Assembly (NCBI GenBank): GCA_937899835.1
Contig: CALCCE010000091.1
Coordinates: 1 to 54,090 of the forward strand
DNA: 54,090 nucleotides
Source: an uncultured Flavobacteriales bacterium
Lineage (GTDB): Bacteria; Bacteroidota; Bacteroidia; Flavobacteriales_G; Salibacteraceae
Direction: 5' to 3'
Positions 200-7,545 of the stretch are shown one piece after another (position 1 is the first letter of the stretch; each line of letters begins with the position of its first letter). Both the position numbers and the translations under genes were made by a program. The notes under the pieces were generated by a model, which was given only the letters and a program-made list of their open reading frames with translations, made no database searches and was not told the DNA's origin.

Positions 200-2833
200 T
201 TATTTCACACTGATGCGGGTAACCGATTGGCGGTCTCCTACTTCTACTTTGAGGGTATAAATACCTTTTGCCTGATCGCTCAAGTCCAGTTGCAACACAT
301 CATCGTTGCTACCTACCATCATTTGACGGTCGAGGATCAAACGGCCTTGCAGGTCGCTTACGGTGAGACGTACTTGTTCGTTGCTCACGCCTTCCATCTG
401 TACTTGTACCTTGCCATTTCCTGGATTCGGGAATACAGATACCTGCATGTTGTTGTTTAACTCAGCTACGTTTACTGGCCATGGCACAGTGACGTTGATC
501 GAATCAGTATTGGAACAACCGTTAGAATCAGTAACCGTTACCCAGTAAGTACCTGTAGAGGTAGCTGCATAGGTTGGGTTAGTTGTCAGGTTGAACCAAA
601 CATAGCTGGTAAATACGCCAGGTGAGAGAATTGCAAACTCATCTTTGTTGGTCGTGATGTCAGGACCAAGGTTTGGTTGTGGCAATGGATTGATGGCAGA
701 CAGGGTTACCATGGTGGTTTCTGTACATCCATTGTCGTCAGTGACCACTACATTGTAAGGTCCGGCAGCGAGGTTGCTGGCAGTAGTAGTCGTCTGTCCC
801 AGAGGATCATTCCACAATACAGCGTAAGGAGGGGTACCACCAGTAGCAGCTACTGTAGCATCACCATCGGTTCCACCTGTACAGTTGACATCAGTGGATC
901 CGGCAATGGAGGCAACCAATACTGGAGGCTCACTAAAGGTGATGTTGCTCAATACGATGGTATCGCAACCAAATGTGTCTGAAACAGCAACACTTAATAC
1001 CGTAGAGGCATCATTGTTCATATTGCTCATCATCGTGGTAGAATCACTCCACAAGTAATTATAAGGCATGGTACCACCAGTTGTAGTTACCGTAGCAGAA
1101 GCATCGGAAAGACCGTTGCAACTTACATCAACCGTAGAAACAGAAGCTGCCAAAGGAGCAGGCTCGTTAACGATAACACTTGCGGTTACTTCACAACCGT
1201 TGGCATCACCTACAGTTACATCATAAGTACCTACCCCCAGGTTCATCAATGGGTTCATGGTACCACTACCAGAGCCACCCCAAGAATAGCTGTAAGGCTC
1301 CAGTGGAATGAAGGCAGTAACATCGTTGGTAACTGTATCCCAGGTTTGGCTGTTGCGTGAGGGATGCCAGTAAGCTTCCGTTCCACCCACATTCTCAATA
1401 CCCATAGTCGCATTGTTGAAACCAGTGAAAGTCGTGCTGGTGGTATGGATTTCAATCCGATTGCTTCCTTCGTGCAGGTGCAACTGCATGGTTACCGTTG
1501 GGTTGGTAGCAGTACAGCACAAGTGAACATCGGCAAACGAGAGTACCCACACCCGGTTGGGAGCTGAACCCACTGTGAAATGCTCAATGGTGCTGCTTCC
1601 CAGGTTTGGATTCAAATCTTCCCAAGCAAAAGCAATCAAGTTGTTGGGTGCATTGGTGTTGGGAAGGTTTTGCCCGGTACAGCATCCAGAGCCCGAACCT
1701 GGATCAAAGGTTGCGAAACCGTTGGAAGAGACATAAATCTCCGTGTAGTCGGTATTGAAAAAGTTAAAAGTAAACGGTAGGGTAATGGCTGGGGATACCT
1801 GATCATCCCCCAGAGAAAGCGGAGTGCCAATACCATTTAAAGGTCCAAACTGGCCATTGGTGTCAACCAGGTATCCTCCAAACTGAGTTCCTCCGCTGGC
1901 CATTGCCATGGCCACGCCATTGGTGTCTCCAAAACAGTTCAGATCAAAATCTTCAGTGGTAACTACAAGTTCGGGGAAGGCTAATACCGTATCCATTGCC
2001 ATTGCTGTATCACCTATAGAGTCGATTACCATTACGCTGACGGGGCCGGCTGGTAGATCGCATACGGTGTCAGTAGTATCACCAGTAGACCATAGAATGG
2101 AATATGGAGCGGTACCAAAGGCGATGCTTACGGCAGCTTTACCAGTAGAATCACCGAAACAGGTGTTCTCAAATGGATCCACTACAGCAGTAAGAACCGT
2201 TTCATAAATATTGACATCATCGATAGCAATATCGTGCGTAAAGGAAGTCACGTTGTTAGAACCTCTCCACCGCAACTGAATGGTATCACCACTAAAAGCA
2301 GAAAGGTTGACGGAACGTAAAGTCCAGTTAGGACCAATTATACCAATCGAATCCACTCCCAGGTTCCAAACCTGGTTGGTTTGTGACCAAACGTCTAACA
2401 GCACTTTATTGCCATTGGCAGAAGTGGTTTGGCTGTGTGCCCAATATTCCAACACGATGCCGGTACCTAAACCGGTGAAATCGAAAAACGGAGAAATGAA
2501 GTTGATATCGGTGTTGTTACCGAAACCGTCTTCCAAAAAGATGTAAACACCCGAACCAGAGGTGTGGTCAGCGGTAGGACCAGTGTTGCTTGATCCAGTA
2601 GCGGAAGAACGTCCGTACCAGTCCTGAGGACCATCTCCGGTTTGATCATTGGACCATCCGTTGGGAAAAAGTCCATTTGGAGCAGGAAATGGCTCAGCAC
2701 CTGGGCCAAAAGTGGTATTGTCAGTTTGAAACGTGTCGAAAGTTTCAAGATACGGGTAAGAGGTTACCGTAACCTGGGCAGAAAGCCAGGAAACCATAGT
2801 AATACCCACAAGAAGAGTAAAAAGTCGCTTCAT
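200..2833 (-). CDS. T9SS type A cargo protein with MAM-like, SprB-like and nested domains
   Basis: An 877-residue secreted protein. Residues 1-20 form a signal peptide ending in SAQ. Residues about 25-211 resemble a MAM/jelly-roll adhesion domain ending in an AIDDV motif. SprB-like beta repeats follow, marked by CFGD or CNG starts, a GGT-PY-Y-LW core and a TVxDxxGC end (about 225-285, 300-555, 570-630, 648-710). The second is interrupted at about 317-511 by a separate globular segment with CC pairs. An Ig-like unit (about 720-785) precedes a type A sorting domain (about 796-877) with the FPNPGNGKV, LTVSDLQGRL and KGIYTLKV signatures. By family knowledge such proteins cross the outer membrane through T9SS and are attached or released; adhesion is inferred. 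It is a single-gene unit with a terminator at 137-170. The ATG at 2833 precedes a good signal peptide. Confidence 0.9.
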   Translation of the reverse strand: MKRLFTLLVGITMVSWLSAQVTVTSYPYLETFDTFQTDNTTFGPGAEPFPAPNGLFPNGWSNDQTGDGPQDWYGRSSATGSSNTGPTADHTSGSGVYIFLEDGFGNNTDINFISPFFDFTGLGTGIVLEYWAHSQTTSANGNKVLLDVWSQTNQVWNLGVDSIGIIGPNWTLRSVNLSAFSGDTIQLRWRGSNNVTSFTHDIAIDDVNIYETVLTAVVDPFENTCFGDSTGKAAVSIAFGTAPYSILWSTGDTTDTVCDLPAGPVSVMVIDSIGDTAMAMDTVLAFPELVVTTEDFDLNCFGDTNGVAMAMASGGTQFGGYLVDTNGQFGPLNGIGTPLSLGDDQVSPAITLPFTFNFFNTDYTEIYVSSNGFATFDPGSGSGCCTGQNLPNTNAPNNLIAFAWEDLNPNLGSSTIEHFTVGSAPNRVWVLSFADVHLCCTATNPTVTMQLHLHEGSNRIEIHTTSTTFTGFNNATMGIENVGGTEAYWHPSRNSQTWDTVTNDVTAFIPLEPYSYSWGGSGSGTMNPLMNLGVGTYDVTVGDANGCEVTASVIVNEPAPLAASVSTVDVSCNGLSDASATVTTTGGTMPYNYLWSDSTTMMSNMNNDASTVLSVAVSDTFGCDTIVLSNITFSEPPVLVASIAGSTDVNCTGGTDGDATVAATGGTPPYAVLWNDPLGQTTTTASNLAAGPYNVVVTDDNGCTETTMVTLSAINPLPQPNLGPDITTNKDEFAILSPGVFTSYVWFNLTTNPTYAATSTGTYWVTVTDSNGCSNTDSINVTVPWPVNVAELNNNMQVSVFPNPGNGKVQVQMEGVSNEQVRLTVSDLQGRLILDRQMMVGSNDDVLQLDLSDQAKGIYTLKVEVGDRQSVTRISVK

Positions 2834-3292
2834 AAGCAGTCTAAGATTGGTTTTTACAAGGCAGATAATTAATTAGGCAGTCGATTGAACACCTTTTTCA
2901 TATGATGAGATACAAAAAAGTGTCGATCGGTTGTTTATCGATCGCAAATTACCCAAATAAACGAATCATGCTACCAAGTAATCTTTTATTTCGTCCACAT
3001 TAGTGGAAGGTTAAGAAAGTTGTTTGAGGGGGGATAAGGGCGTGATTTTACGGATTTTCATAGGGGATTATACGTTTTTTTGCATCCTCGAAACAAAAAT
3101 TGATTTTGGTATAACTTAATGAAATTGAAGGTTTTGTAATGATTTTGTCCCCTCGATACGGTACAAAGAATGCTCTTTGCAAGGGTTTTAATTGGCTTTC
3201 CAATTGCTCACCTTTATATACCCTTAAATCACAAATCAAACAGGGAGACCTATCATTAGGGAGACCTACCATCAATTGCCCGAAAAGTAGCA
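2834..3292. other. Divergent intergenic region with a short direct repeat
   Basis: This 459-bp stretch separates the minus-strand T9SS gene from the plus-strand GIY-YIG-like gene and should hold both promoters. I see no convincing ORF. A 14-bp direct repeat, GGGAGACCTAYCAT, occurs at 3243-3256 and 3259-3272, 21 bp before the downstream ATG, where it could bind a regulator. A small palindrome of the ATCGAT type lies near 2925-2943. Confidence 0.5.
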
Positions 3293-3835
3293 ATGAGTCA
3301 ACCGAAGTATGCTTTTTCGTTGGGTGGGGAACATTTCAAGGCCACCTATCTTATTTACATCCTACAACTCCGATATCAGGAAGAGAATTACTACTACGTT
3401 GGGCAAACCGGGGATAACAATCATTTGACTGCTCGTTCGGCCTTTCGGCGGTTGGCCGGTCACTTTGAGGATAGCAATACCTCTACTCAAAACAAGTTTT
3501 ACCGTTATATGGTGAAGGAGTGGTTAGCACCAAAAGGAGAAGCCAAACCGATTACCCGAGAGGTAAAAGCCCAAATGGAAGGCATCCTCACAGAGTCGGA
3601 GGTGACGGTATTCGTTTATCCATTAATGGATTTCAATCACCAGCAAATACTACCCCGCATACACAAGGAAAAGGTGAAAATGGTGAAGGAATTCGAAAAA
3701 TATGTGATTCATTGGTTTAGCGACAGCGGCTATAATCTAATTAATGGATTGCGCGCCCACATCGTTTTTCCGATGGAAAAGCTCTTTCCAGATCGGTACG
3801 ATGAAATTTGTAAGGACTTTCCTGCGTTGAATTGA
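3293..3835 (+). CDS. GIY-YIG-like protein, 180 aa
   Basis: Residues 20-45 carry an IYIL...YYYVGQTGD pattern, which matches the GIY...YVGQT core of the GIY-YIG nuclease superfamily (here IYI then YVG). A downstream segment with R, H and F residues (AFRRLAGHF) resembles the region that supplies the second catalytic Arg. The rest (about 60-180) is charged and unrecognised. There is no signal peptide, so a cytoplasmic role is expected. The gene stands alone, with over 450 bp of non-coding DNA on each side. The fold call is by motif only. The catalytic Glu is not obvious, so it could be an inactive or divergent member. A restriction, repair or mobile-element role cannot be chosen from sequence alone. 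Confidence 0.65.
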   Translation: MSQPKYAFSLGGEHFKATYLIYILQLRYQEENYYYVGQTGDNNHLTARSAFRRLAGHFEDSNTSTQNKFYRYMVKEWLAPKGEAKPITREVKAQMEGILTESEVTVFVYPLMDFNHQQILPRIHKEKVKMVKEFEKYVIHWFSDSGYNLINGLRAHIVFPMEKLFPDRYDEICKDFPALN

Positions 3836-4341
3836 TATATCTCAGAAAACGCCTTAAATACAAGGGTTTTCGAGTACATTATCTTTCGTTTCTGAACGGA
3901 TTTGCCTATTTTTAATCTTCTCAACCAGGAAAGTGTGCCCCTACCATGAATTTTATTGCTCCTATTCTTTATAAAGTACTCCGTAATCCTGTCATGTTGG
4001 ATGGAGTAGGAGAAAGTCTTGTGATGTGGCCGCCCGAACGGCCAAGCCCCAAAGGTTGGGAGGATACAGGTTTTACCGGTTCTCGAACCGCTTGCCTGGA
4101 TTACATGCGGAAACGTTGGCGGACTCCCAACTCTCACTTTCCGATCATTCGGGAAACGTTTTCCTTTTCCACTTAAGCTGATCAATTTTATACCGCTTTT
4201 CATACATGAAAAGTGCCTCCTTGTGCTGTAGGATAGATTTTTCATGGCATTTCATAGCTGCTTTCGTTGCAGGGCTTTGGGGATTTAACTACCTTTCCAA
4301 CAGTTCCAATAGGAGCTTTTGATTCCAAATTCCACCAATTC
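3836..4341. other. Gene-poor interval before the DUF2589 cluster
   Basis: About 500 bp without a convincing gene; open frames on both strands show no family features and overlap each other. A small hairpin (GGCCG / CGGCC) lies near 4028-4043, and a GGTT-CTCG-AACC hairpin near 4080-4091 is not part of a tRNA cloverleaf. A promoter for the downstream cluster is expected here; no clear TAnnTTTG element was identified. Confidence 0.4.
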
Positions 4342-5199
4342 ATGGCCAAAACAAATACGGGCAGTAGTGCCTCTGGTGCTAACACAGATTACAGCGGAAA
4401 GTGGCAAGAGGGGCCAGCAGCTAAATCGGTTGTTTCACTTAGCCAGGTATTACTCGCCCCCCTGGATGCTATTTTCAAGGCTCAGGTACATGCCGCCCGA
4501 TCCTTTCTTTCCCTGGTGCTTCAATTGGGTTATCCCCACGTGCCTGTAAACGAAAAAGGCGAGCCGGTAGACGGAGGTACCCAGGTGTATACACAGGAAT
4601 TTGTATTCAATGAACGAGAGGAAAACGGCAAAACCATTGTATCGAAAGCCAAACTTCCGGTTTTGAGCATGGTACCCGTTGCTCCTTTGGCGGTAGAACA
4701 TGCCGAGTTCGATTTAGAGTTTAGTGTGAGTCATGTGTTTCGCCATACTCAATTGCAAGATGCTGAAAAAGAAAATGTTGCCGCGGAAAAAGACAAAAGT
4801 GGCAAACGTTTTAATGAACACCGCAGACCATGGTTTTTGGTAAAAGATCCGGTGAGTCTGCGGGGAGTAGTGGCGCCTAAATCAGAGGCCGGGGGAACTG
4901 CTGAATCTTCCAATAACACCGCCATCAAAATTCGGGTAAAAGTCGGCAAGCAGCCGGTTCCGGCTGCACTGGATAAATTGTTGACTTCAATGACCCAAAT
5001 GGTGAATGTAGAGGAGAAAGAACAACCCAATGGCAACCCGCCCCCAACCGATGATAGCGGTACAAACAACGTAGGACCTGCGGCTCCAGCCCCAACTCAA
5101 CCGACAACTCCGCCAAGTGCTTCTACTCCATCTTCGCAATCCGGAACGGGTAGTGGAGGCACTTTGCTAACCGACGATACCGATCTACCTCAACAATAA
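4342..5199 (+). CDS. DUF2589 family protein with proline-rich tail
   Basis: 285 residues from the ATG at 4342, preferred over an in-frame TTG at 4267 whose product would add a featureless leader. Three parts are visible: an N-terminal Ser/Gly segment; a long amphipathic helix (from VSLSQVLLAPLDAIFKAQ on) followed by a beta-rich core containing KLPVLSMVPVAPL, the P-LL-VPVP-like hallmark of DUF2589; and a Pro/Thr/Ser-rich disordered tail (about residues 235-285). There is no signal peptide. The second DUF2589 gene follows after 48 bp. The family has no established function as far as I know. The paired paralogs and the downstream cell-wall enzyme suggest a structural or membrane-associated role in a multi-protein assembly, which is inference. 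Confidence 0.8.
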   Translation: MAKTNTGSSASGANTDYSGKWQEGPAAKSVVSLSQVLLAPLDAIFKAQVHAARSFLSLVLQLGYPHVPVNEKGEPVDGGTQVYTQEFVFNEREENGKTIVSKAKLPVLSMVPVAPLAVEHAEFDLEFSVSHVFRHTQLQDAEKENVAAEKDKSGKRFNEHRRPWFLVKDPVSLRGVVAPKSEAGGTAESSNNTAIKIRVKVGKQPVPAALDKLLTSMTQMVNVEEKEQPNGNPPPTDDSGTNNVGPAAPAPTQPTTPPSASTPSSQSGTGSGGTLLTDDTDLPQQ

Positions 5200-5247
5200 A
5201 TAATCGAATAACCTCATTTTTAAATCCATATCTAAATCCTATCACCC

Positions 5248-5811
5248 ATGGCAGAAGAAATGCTACCGGCCGCTGAATTTCAGGCCCTTCCTCTCGAATA
5301 CGTGATCTCAGCTCCTTTAACCGGAGTGATCAATGCGCAAAAAGTAGCCGCCGATACCACCAAGAATTTCATTGATTCTATGTTGAACGATGATAAAACC
5401 CCGGTGACGGTTGACTTTGAAACCGCAGTAAATCAAACCGCTGCAGATGGCTCTACCTCTTCCTCGAACGTGAAGGTAAGTGCTCCTTTGCTTTCCATAG
5501 TTCCGGTGCCACACATCCGAATTGATTCCTTCACCTCTTCGTTCAACTATCAAATTACGCAGGTAGCCAAAGCAGCCACTTCCAACGAAAAAGCCTTGTC
5601 TGGGTCTGCTGAAGTTGGCGGAAATCCTTGGGTGAAGGCTTCTTTTAAAGGTAGTATCAGCAGCAATGCGTCCAAAGAATCGACCACCAACCGCAGCGGT
5701 TCTATTGATATCACAGTACACGCTAGTGAATCACCTATTCCTGAGGGCCTGGCTAAGATTCTCAGCTTGATGTCAAATGCTGTTACGGTAACGCCTTCTT
5801 CCTCTTCGTGA
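5248..5811 (+). CDS. DUF2589 family protein, compact paralog
   Basis: 187 residues. The N-terminus has the family's helix, here APLTGVINAQKVAADTTKNF, and the core has APLLSIVPVPHIRIDSF, the most recognisable DUF2589 motif, followed by alternating beta strands and a Ser-rich end. It is shorter than its neighbour and lacks the proline-rich tail. No signal peptide or transmembrane helix is visible; the N-terminal helix is amphipathic and could touch a membrane. The next gene starts 32 bp downstream, so the four genes from 4342 to 7545 probably form one transcript. Two unequal DUF2589 copies in tandem suggest hetero-oligomerisation, which is inference. Confidence 0.85.
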   Translation: MAEEMLPAAEFQALPLEYVISAPLTGVINAQKVAADTTKNFIDSMLNDDKTPVTVDFETAVNQTAADGSTSSSNVKVSAPLLSIVPVPHIRIDSFTSSFNYQITQVAKAATSNEKALSGSAEVGGNPWVKASFKGSISSNASKESTTNRSGSIDITVHASESPIPEGLAKILSLMSNAVTVTPSSSS

Positions 5812-5843
5812 AGCCCAAGGCGGTAACATCGTATTAAATCCTT

Positions 5844-6287
5844 ATGCCTAAAGGCGAGCCCATCACGCTTCAGCAACTAAGTACCCATTTGTTGAACGAG
5901 GTGATCCGGGCCGATGCGCAAATGCAGCTCAACCAGCGTCAAACCTGGAAAGAGCTCATTGACATGAACACCCAATTGGTGGACAGCATCGGAATGGGTC
6001 CTGCACCCTTTTTAGGGGTGGATGAAATGCGCTTTGATTTGTCTTTAACTCCAGCGAAACCTTCGCGTTGGCAACGCTTTAAGGTACGATTAGGCATTGG
6101 AGCTGATCCTTATCAGGCATTGAAAAATCATTTTGTGTTGCACCGCAGTACAGCTACCGAACAAGCCATTGCGGTAAGCATTGTGGTGAAGCGCGACAAC
6201 CAAGGTCGTTGGAAAGCTGCGCAGGAAAGTTCGGCCGAAGCAGACCTTATACCCGAGGAAAGCCATGTCATTGGAATCTCTGGATAA
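5844..6287 (+). CDS. Unrecognised 147-aa partner of the DUF2589 cluster
   Basis: I do not recognise a family. The N-terminal half is helical (LQQLSTHLLNEVIRADAQMQ), and the middle contains a strand pattern (MRFDLSLTPAKPSRWQRFKVRLG) and an AVSIVVKRDNQG strand. That resembles the beta core of the two upstream DUF2589 proteins in rhythm but lacks the VPVP motif. It has no signal peptide or membrane segment. Its 3' end overlaps the start of the transglycosylase-like gene by 23 bp, which argues for translational coupling and a shared job. It could be a highly diverged DUF2589-like subunit or a chaperone. Confidence 0.75.
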   Translation: MPKGEPITLQQLSTHLLNEVIRADAQMQLNQRQTWKELIDMNTQLVDSIGMGPAPFLGVDEMRFDLSLTPAKPSRWQRFKVRLGIGADPYQALKNHFVLHRSTATEQAIAVSIVVKRDNQGRWKAAQESSAEADLIPEESHVIGISG

Positions 6288-7545
6288 TGGCTGGAAGCGC
6301 TTCCATGGAGGACGCATCTGGCGGTTACATCCGCAACACAAGGTGTTGGAGACGGATGAGGCAGGTCATGTGCCCAGTTATACCACTAAGTATCCTTACC
6401 TGCTGCCCAAGTTGGCCCGTATTCGACAATTCTATTCCGGAAAAGTCAATATGGGTGCCGTCGATCGCCATGGTACTGGTCTGGATATATTGGTAGCCAA
6501 TGCCATGGCCGAGTCTTATGGTTCGGTGCCCACTCCCTTTTCTTACCGGCAGCTGAAAAATGATTTCGATCAAGCGGCCGGTCAAACCGCTGGAGTGCGT
6601 CTGGATGAAGTATTGAATCGGGTAAAAGCGCGCTCCAAATGGTTGGTACGCAAGGAGCCTGGATACATCGATCCGCTCAGTACTCCACATCGGGTTTCGG
6701 TGGGGGCGCATCACATGTTGCTTTCCACCGCGCGATGGCTCAAGGGTTCGAAAACACAAAAAGGAACAGCTGCCTACGAACACGAGGTGGCCGATTTGAT
6801 CTTTCGATTTATTTCTTCCTCGCCTTTTGCTGCTCAAATGGCGGTACACTATTTCAACCGCTATACGCACCGGCACCAGAATGAAATTCCGCTGATGGCG
6901 GCTACTTACAATGCCGGCTCTCCGAGGGCCAGTTCTCGCAACCCTTGGCACTTGGTGCAATACGGCGATCACATCGATCGCTGGGTGAGCTTTTTCAACA
7001 CCTCGCGGCAATTGGTCAACAAGAATGCAACGCCGGCCAAGCCCAAACCGAGCAATGGACGCGGTATCCCACCAGGGTTGGTAGCACCCACCACCACACT
7101 CAAAGTGGCTAAAGCTTCGGAACAACGGTTGAAACTGACCCATTTGAAAGTGGTACGCGAGGTGTATACGGAAACCACAACCATAGGTCGCCTCTATATC
7201 AATGAGCAATTTCACTGTTATACCTTAGAAGACCGCTATCGGTCCGATGGTAAAAAAGTGTATGGAGAAACCGCCATTGCCGAAGGGCGTTACCAAGTGA
7301 TTGTCAACATGAGCAACCGCTTCAAACGCCGGATGCCACTGCTTTTGAACGTGCCTCAATTCGCAGGGATCCGTATTCACAAAGGCAATACCGCTAAAGA
7401 TACTTTGGGGTGTATTCTGGTGGGCAAAAACAAGGGGCCTGATCGCATCTGGGATTGTAGTGGTGTGTACAACAGCCTGTTAGCTGTGCTTGAAAAAGCT
7501 ACTGCTGAAGGTAAAGTGTGGATTACGATACGGAGAGGGCGATAG
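6265..7545 (+). CDS. Lytic transglycosylase-like protein with C-terminal DUF5675 domain
   Basis: 426 residues with two domains. Residues about 55-245 look like a lysozyme/SLT-type transglycosylase: LVANAMAESYG (probable catalytic Glu83), VGAHHMLLSTARW and MAATYNAGSPRA, the family's E / GLMQ-like / A-YNAG order. A Pro-rich linker (about 255-285) leads to a DUF5675 domain (about 291-424) with RIHKGNTAKDTLGCILVGK. That His...Gly-Cys layout resembles the active site of L,D-transpeptidases (YkuD), so a second peptidoglycan activity is possible. No signal peptide is seen, as in phage endolysins and injection-system lysozymes. It is the last gene of the DUF2589 cluster and overlaps the preceding gene, so the cluster probably acts at the cell wall. 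A prophage-remnant origin is an alternative, but no tail or capsid genes are nearby. Confidence 0.8.
   Translation: MSLESLDNGWKRFHGGRIWRLHPQHKVLETDEAGHVPSYTTKYPYLLPKLARIRQFYSGKVNMGAVDRHGTGLDILVANAMAESYGSVPTPFSYRQLKNDFDQAAGQTAGVRLDEVLNRVKARSKWLVRKEPGYIDPLSTPHRVSVGAHHMLLSTARWLKGSKTQKGTAAYEHEVADLIFRFISSSPFAAQMAVHYFNRYTHRHQNEIPLMAATYNAGSPRASSRNPWHLVQYGDHIDRWVSFFNTSRQLVNKNATPAKPKPSNGRGIPPGLVAPTTTLKVAKASEQRLKLTHLKVVREVYTETTTIGRLYINEQFHCYTLEDRYRSDGKKVYGETAIAEGRYQVIVNMSNRFKRRMPLLLNVPQFAGIRIHKGNTAKDTLGCILVGKNKGPDRIWDCSGVYNSLLAVLEKATAEGKVWITIRRGR

Follow-up and report, generated by a model that had tools for sequence, protein, structure and literature searches.

A four-gene cassette on a Flavobacteriales contig

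The window analyzed here is a 54,090-nucleotide stretch (GenBank assembly GCA_937899835.1, contig CALCCE010000091.1) from an uncultured Flavobacteriales bacterium of the Salibacteraceae, the genome of which is represented by 6.9 Mb in 307 contigs. Its positions 4342 to 7545 hold four genes, designated here A to D, in one tight set on the + strand. Gene A (4342 to 5199, with a longer TTG start possible at 4267) encodes a divergent DUF2589 protein of 285 amino acids and gene B (5248 to 5811) a DUF2589 protein of 187 amino acids; they match Pfam PF11655 at 46.3 and 93.6 bits, respectively, both above the curated cutoff of 23 bits. Gene C (5844 to 6287) encodes an orphan protein of 147 amino acids which is kept in the module and evolves fast. 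Gene D (6265 to 7545) specifies a predicted two-domain wall enzyme of 426 amino acids, with a putative lytic transglycosylase-like domain at residues 1 to 250 (6265 to 7014) and DUF5675, for which an L,D-transpeptidase fold is predicted, at residues 290 to 426 (7132 to 7542), all likewise on the + strand. A and B are 48 bp apart and B and C 32 bp, while C and D overlap by 23 bp (6265 to 6287). By simple hydropathy, no signal peptide or transmembrane stretch was found in A to D (top 19-residue mean, ≤1.36). These data bear out a previous sequence-only reading of the window, which had noted two unequal DUF2589 genes in a tight, partly overlapping four-gene set lacking obvious signal peptides.

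Conservation of the cassette in other genomes

When 84,980 genomes were scanned for B, four loci (L020 to L023) were returned; the scan works with short peptide patterns, and more copies of the module may have escaped it. Another outside locus, L119, came from a family search of the class, making six loci with the window. The order B-C-D is the same in all six. Upstream of B, gene A is complete in the window, L022, L023, and L119; in L021 the contig ends within it, and L020 lacks it. C and D overlap at every locus (by 23, 11, 17, 23, 17, and 20 bp). Between loci, identity is 48 to 87% for B, 45 to 77% for the first 250 residues of D, and only 14 to 50% for C, with the four full-length A proteins (window, L022, L023, and L119) at 40 to 47%. 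A gene order repeated in five other genomes is beyond chance, and the pattern suggests that the cassette is gained or lost as one unit and that C and D are co-translated.

The named records with other copies of the module are Bacteroidota or Bacteroidales metagenome-assembled genomes. D is rare: of 60 relatives and of 395 genomes of the phylum, only the window's own was found to have it, and the distribution of DUF2589 is patchy (27 of 394 phylum genomes). The L119 copy lies on contig C5 of genome G510 in a region with large orphan proteins; a patatin (11 kb) and an L,D-transpeptidase-like protein (L121, about 10 kb) are encoded upstream of that module and a deaminase-toxin-like protein 2 kb downstream.

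Enzyme D as a predicted murein-directed fusion protein

The N-terminal part of D gave no Pfam SLT match at E values up to 1, and the profile of D found nothing in the PDB at E values up to 1. The N-terminal profile identified a single distant protein among the loci examined, on a Rhizobium plasmid (L120; E, 4.7e-8), and this homolog is a Pfam SLT protein (61.3 bits) that also contains PG_binding_1. Glu83, Ser84, Gly86, Gly147, His149, His150, and Tyr215 to Ser219 (YNAGS) are invariant in all six D proteins, and judged by eye they appear to correspond by position to the catalytic Glu, the middle glycine stretch, and the YNAG of SLT; Glu-Ser-x-Gly, Gly, and YNAGS thus come in the same order in D as in Pfam SLT (PF01464). 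From these sequence comparisons, residues 1 to 250 are probably a lytic transglycosylase-like domain, linked to SLT through the Rhizobium homolog. The likeness has limits, as GLMQ in that homolog is GAHH in D and the gene partners also differ. The Rhizobium protein (L120, 7221 to 9560) parallels the two-part makeup of D in having, besides SLT and PG_binding_1, a C-terminal SAGC stretch (by eye), and it adjoins a large membrane-type protein.

Structural prediction was less informative for this half of the protein. The AlphaFold2 model of D has a mean predicted local distance difference test (pLDDT) score of 67.2, falling below 50 around the N-terminal active site, and the best N-terminal structural matches, phage endolysins with Z scores of 5.1 and 4.6, fall where the model is poor; the SPN1S-type endolysin (PDB 4ok7) is one such weak match. 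The N-terminal part also weakly matches phrog_600, of undescribed function (E, 1.6e-4).

The C-terminal half is clearer. DUF5675 (PF18925) was detected at residues 296 to 410 with 108.4 bits. With VIA-align 2, the best structural match of the C-terminal 137 residues has a Z score of 8.5 (root mean square deviation [rmsd], 2.9; 105 residues aligned). The first 40 of the 45 matches listed are all L,D-transpeptidases, Pgp2, Csd6, or Tlde1a (Z, 6.4 to 8.5; rmsd, 2.7 to 3.4; 97 to 107 residues aligned); two endolysins come next, after which unrelated chains score 2.1 to 2.6. Foldseek alone, run with the whole D chain, gave no match at an E value of 0.001. At the sequence level, D showed no Pfam YkuD match at E values up to 1 and DUF5675 no PDB match at E values up to 5. 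A His and a Cys (His372 and Cys383 in D) are aligned in all eight DUF5675 sequences compared, with GC in seven and AC in that of L099, giving an H...GC motif which we take to resemble that of YkuD. Both the predicted fold (Z, up to 8.5) and this motif are shared with LdtMt2, Pgp2, and Csd6, the latter two presumably L,D-carboxypeptidases of L,D-transpeptidase fold; identity to these proteins is low, however (7 to 15%), and D lacks a signal peptide and a Pfam YkuD match. DUF5675 is therefore predicted to have an L,D-transpeptidase fold in which His372 and Cys383 are candidate catalytic residues. Tlde1a of Salmonella (PDB 7uma, 7uo3, and 7uo8), in which an L,D-transpeptidase-type fold serves as a toxic murein enzyme, matches D residues 290 to 426 with Z scores of 6.4 to 6.7. 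It is, in contrast, a single-domain protein delivered by a type VI secretion system (T6SS), whereas D is fused to a transglycosylase-like domain and is co-encoded with DUF2589.

The window D would hence combine two domains predicted to be directed at murein, one at its glycan strands and the other at its stem peptides. The fusion of a transglycosylase to DUF5675 that had been proposed from the sequence finds support in the Rhizobium SLT homolog, the invariant motifs, and the DUF5675 match. Only two of the six D proteins (window and L022) carry DUF5675; those of L020, L021, L023, and L119 stop after the first domain. Stand-alone DUF5675 genes are present in other genomes.

DUF2589 proteins and the companion protein C

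Pfam lists DUF2589, as had been supposed, and also DUF5675 as being of unknown function. Among 5.39 million papers searched, DUF2589 is named in one and DUF5675 in two, always in passing, and the accession PF11655 does not appear; a broader search returned no paper. The AlphaFold2 model of B, built from 50 sequences, shows a long helix (residues 16 to 44), four strands, and a C-terminal helix (pLDDT, 71.5), with residues 106 to 146 mostly of low confidence. The alignment consensus of the long helix in DUF2589 is A-x3-A-Q-x3-A, and the conserved Ala residues could pack subunits together. Searches of the PDB with this fold gave nothing convincing (best Foldseek E value, 0.91; best VIA-align 2 Z score, 3.4), nor did the DUF2589 profile find any PDB entry at E values up to 5. 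DUF2589 thus appears to be without a convincing PDB relative, which is no proof of a new fold. Protein A ends in a Pro/Thr/Ser-rich C terminus, a feature that the A proteins of L021 (partial), L022, and L023 lack in the alignment.

Protein C matched no Pfam, NCBIfam, or PADLOC family at E values up to 1, a single PHROG (E, 0.29), and only two PDB entries (E, 0.18). Companion proteins of DUF2589 fall into a family of the window's module type (C1, 9 members) and one of other module types (C2, 23 members). That C is a divergent DUF2589 relative is no more than a possibility: the C1 and C2 profiles align with those of DUF2589 in the same register at a probability below 7%, and the C2-type profile finds one DUF2589 protein, at an E value of only 0.0084.

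The window's own genome has a second DUF2589 cluster with three DUF2589 genes on the 6.4-kb contig C185 (L006, positions 1912 to 6106), which also carries genes for a ricin-type lectin-like protein and for a two-helix membrane protein of the SLATT type.

Wall enzymes of unrelated families beside DUF2589 clusters

The surroundings of DUF2589 genes were read in 49 loci, of which 32 were kept for a comparison of near (within 2 kb) and far genes; the 17 left out were near-duplicates, module repeats, short fragments, or high-G+C loci with doubtful frames, while L070 and L081, both from one genus, were retained. Frames running off the ends, longer than 1,100 amino acids, or overlapping DUF2589 or C genes were skipped. 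A further 6 of the 155 near frames and 19 of the 166 far frames were removed manually, either because they were probably antisense or to limit their number.

Twelve of the 32 loci have a wall enzyme recognized by Pfam (or D itself) no more than 2 kb from the DUF2589 cluster. Besides the window, these encode an M15 peptidase together with a patatin (L057), CHAP (L064), PG_binding_1 (L059), N-acetylmuramidase (L090 and L116), GH25 (L066, L074, L075, and L118), or SLT fused to SBP_bac_3 (L086 and L088). Two more, L072 (PG_binding_1 just above the cutoff; E, 3.6e-5) and L089 (N-acetylmuramidase at 2.04 kb), would make it 14 of 32. L118 has in addition a stand-alone DUF5675 gene 2.6 kb away. Other Pfam-recognized hydrolases are a subtilase (L055), a trypsin (L058), and a nuclease (L067). 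Proteins with an H...S-x-GC stretch at L115, within the cluster, and at L121 look L,D-transpeptidase-like by eye and have no Pfam match; L115 is counted here among the loci without a wall enzyme.

GH25 was the commonest family listed among the 149 near genes (four genes), which also included three PG_binding_1, two muramidase, and two SLT genes. None of these four families was among those listed for the 147 far genes of the same loci; the listings cover 25 of 152 near and 25 of 145 far families, so that single-member wall enzyme families may lie outside them on either side, and the far set does hold two known wall enzymes, the DUF5675 of L118 and the muramidase of L089. A genome-wide search of nine genomes found GH25 in seven, with none in G252 and G292. 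The sole GH25 gene found in G001, G011, and G020 sits at the DUF2589 cluster, as does one of two in G014, G726, and G379. A GH25 gene would be that near by chance in about 0.2 to 0.5% of such genomes, although four of the six genomes with GH25 at the cluster share a family and three of these a genus. Muramidase was found in three of the nine genomes, with one gene each, and is at the DUF2589 cluster in G713.

Overall, the data reveal a strong association of DUF2589 with wall enzymes of unrelated families. The association that the sequence-only reading had put up for testing is thus conserved and recurs with different enzymes, a situation in which unrelated wall cutters in one slot suggest a new modular lysis or killing device.

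Some further neighbors are recorded here. At L078 (2622 to 6818), a DUF2589-C2-helical set is followed by a 1,398-amino-acid protein that resembles insecticidal-toxin B/SpvB by eye. Similar small proteins with IAHGN...STCxH lie beside DUF2589 clusters in two genomes (L068, 4631 to 4996; L071, 7597 to 8025); by eye they are possibly caspase-like peptidases, and they have no Pfam match.

Relationship to phages and phage lysis cassettes

A transglycosylase next to DUF5675 might be a remnant of a prophage lysis region, as DUF5675 occurs in phages (phrog_1501; Vibrio phages, according to the available parts of two papers) and also as stand-alone genes in other genomes. We consider this origin highly improbable and rejected it. 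Among 31 of the larger window proteins compared with PHROGs (the 2,394-amino-acid frame excluded), no described structural family was found other than one Hoc-like head decoration match, in a large surface-type protein, 7 of the 17 families matched being undescribed; no capsid, tail, or portal family is among them, in keeping with the claim that phage structural genes are absent nearby. A search of 50,697 phage records gave no match to the D domain, and a peptide-pattern scan of viral contigs gave none within its sensitivity. In virus collections, DUF2589 was seen in a 4-kb unverified fecal scaffold and in one 7.4-kb contig that also has an integrase-like gene, besides two unnamed viral structure models; scans of viral contigs with four DUF2589 queries (A4 plus three single proteins) returned one locus. 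Conservation of the A-B-C-D module in other genomes likewise speaks against a remnant.

The cassette does share with phage holin-endolysin cassettes the signal-less murein enzymes in need of an exit route and the interchangeability of enzyme families. It differs in having a DUF2589 core, no holin-like protein, and no described capsid, tail, or portal genes nearby.

Upstream of the cassette, the window encodes a large protein (200 to 2833), the C-terminal end of which resembles a Por-system sorting domain by eye, and a 180-amino-acid protein (3293 to 3835) with a subthreshold GIY-YIG match (14.5 bits; cutoff, 22.6).

Predicted location of the enzymes and possible direction of attack

An N-terminal hydrophobic anchor is present in all six GH25 and both SBP-SLT proteins scanned, and in five of the six GH25 proteins it is preceded by a charged tail of 26 to 29 residues. 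The 13 remaining wall enzymes or candidates in the scan, among them the D proteins of the window and L119, have no such anchor. Judging from the charged tail, the anchored forms would face the producer's periplasm with the tail in the cytosol, alongside DUF2589. The cytosolic tails of the GH25 proteins of L074 to L077 share an L-x-[VI]-[KR]-F-like pattern, loosely echoed in L118, which is possibly a docking strand for DUF2589. Signal-less forms such as D, in contrast, resemble endolysins and need an exit.

The same enzymes could instead be aimed at other cells. DUF2589 proteins would then be adaptors through which D and other hydrolases are loaded onto a machine for secretion or injection and turned against a neighbor's wall, with C as an adaptor or immunity protein. 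The diversity of the hydrolases (murein, lipid, and protein) resembles that of effector repertoires, and the DUF5675 fold group includes Tlde1a (Z, 6.4 to 6.7), a T6SS effector according to the part of the source available (PMC9638812). The fast evolution of C, the lack of signals in the enzymes, and the deaminase-toxin-like protein and patatin 2 kb downstream and 11 kb upstream of the G510 module would also fit. Against such an effector cassette, the membrane-anchored GH25 and SLT versions suit delivery poorly, and the contractile-sheath family is not significantly enriched, being found in 9 of 27 DUF2589 genomes versus 78 of 367 others (two samples drawn with equal settings and treated as one set of 394 genomes; Fisher P = 0.15), so that a link to an injection machine through this family was not significant; in a wider DUF2589 genome set, 15 of 36 have a sheath gene. 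No T6SS family is among the 25 of 152 near-gene families listed, and no search was aimed at T6SS core genes. On balance, delivery to neighbors is unlikely, if still worth considering.

Because the anchored GH25 and SLT enzymes would face their own periplasm, we place self-lysis slightly ahead of the killing of neighbors.

Self-lysis might also serve antiphage defense, DUF2589 sensing infection or a second messenger and unleashing the hydrolase in abortive lysis. Several neighbors are of a defense type: the patatin of L057 matches a PADLOC phospholipase effector (203 bits), L006 has the SLATT membrane protein, a ThsB-TIR lies about 3 kb from the DUF2589 cluster of L073, and a SIR2-HerA pair (L122) is found downstream of the G510 module at a distance of about 8 kb. 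In this uncontrolled count, only a minority of the loci have neighbors of this kind, at distances of 0.3 to about 8 kb. No PADLOC family matches A to D at E values up to 1, the gene upstream of the cassette gives only a weak type I specificity match, and the window surroundings are no obvious defense island. A defense role thus seems rather doubtful. At L073, two ThsB-TIR-like proteins are encoded at 744 to 1610 (PADLOC, 226 and 33 bits).

A proposed DUF2589 scaffold for exchangeable wall enzymes

The interpretation we favor, tentatively and at somewhat below even probability, is that DUF2589 proteins make up a cytosolic scaffold and that an exchangeable enzyme, which attacks the envelope, is held or released by it. 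The four genes would act as one cassette, in which A, B, and probably C form the DUF2589-based scaffold, and the scaffold would hold, silence, or position the enzyme. In the window this enzyme would be D, a signal-less cutter of glycan strands (Glu83) with a stem-peptide module (Cys383). Upon a trigger, it would reach the murein and break it, the most likely target being the producer's own wall, in programmed or altruistic lysis. The scaffold role, trigger, target, and exit route are all inferred. The sequence-only reading had proposed a multiprotein assembly acting on or through the envelope; action on the envelope is well supported by the families to which D and the other enzymes belong, while a single assembly, or action through the envelope, stays a proposal.

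Several observations weigh against this model. There is no visible exit route for D and no holin-like membrane protein among A to D (hydropathy, ≤1.36 over 19 residues). Three loci of one genus (L070, L081, and L082) have A-B-C with no D alongside. Across loci, the pairwise identity of D is uncorrelated with that of B (Spearman, 0.34; P = 0.22) or of C (0.22; P = 0.44), and coevolution with D is therefore not established; for B and C the coefficient is 0.55 (P = 0.035). No recognized wall enzyme is near in 18 of the 32 loci, which have other hydrolases or ordinary genes instead. GH25 genes lie away from DUF2589 in the window's genome and, one each, in G014, G379, and G726, as does muramidase in G116 and G270. 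Finally, archaea, Archaeoglobus included, to our knowledge have no murein. Archaeoglobus fulgidus nonetheless has four adjacent DUF2589-related genes, AF0414 to AF0417, raised on lactate according to the part of the report available (PMC3949148). DUF2589 in such an organism implies a core that cannot be wall specific and must have a broader role.

That role could be a housekeeping one, with DUF2589 proteins as general cytosolic scaffolds in an envelope or stress complex and the hydrolases as ordinary wall remodelers. The carbon source-responsive archaeal genes, as described in the accessible part of the same report (PMC3949148), would fit, as would the majority of loci without a recognized wall enzyme nearby. 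The patchy spread of DUF2589 and the rarity of D are not what such a complex would predict, and replacement by nonhomologous enzymes is unusual for housekeeping genes. We regard this explanation as quite improbable.

Implications

The DUF2589 scaffold with its exchangeable enzyme may exemplify something broader. Perhaps, with slightly less confidence than we attach to the scaffold itself, DUF2589 is central to a widespread, hitherto undescribed device in which a swappable lethal hydrolase, in many cases murein directed, is kept or positioned at the inner membrane or in the cytosol until a signal unleashes it. This would be a nonphage lysis machine of modular build, its scaffold having a fold of its own. 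The proposed scaffold mechanism appears to be new in that A to D fall outside PADLOC, the neighborhood gave no described genes for phage capsids, tails, or portals, the DUF2589 model found no convincing structural relative, and the families are named only in passing. DUF5675 gains from this analysis a predicted fold and candidate catalytic residues, and DUF2589 a specific class of genomic partner, unrelated wall enzymes. If the interpretation is true, several phyla would carry a lysis or killing device that is unlisted in the defense and phage catalogs used here.

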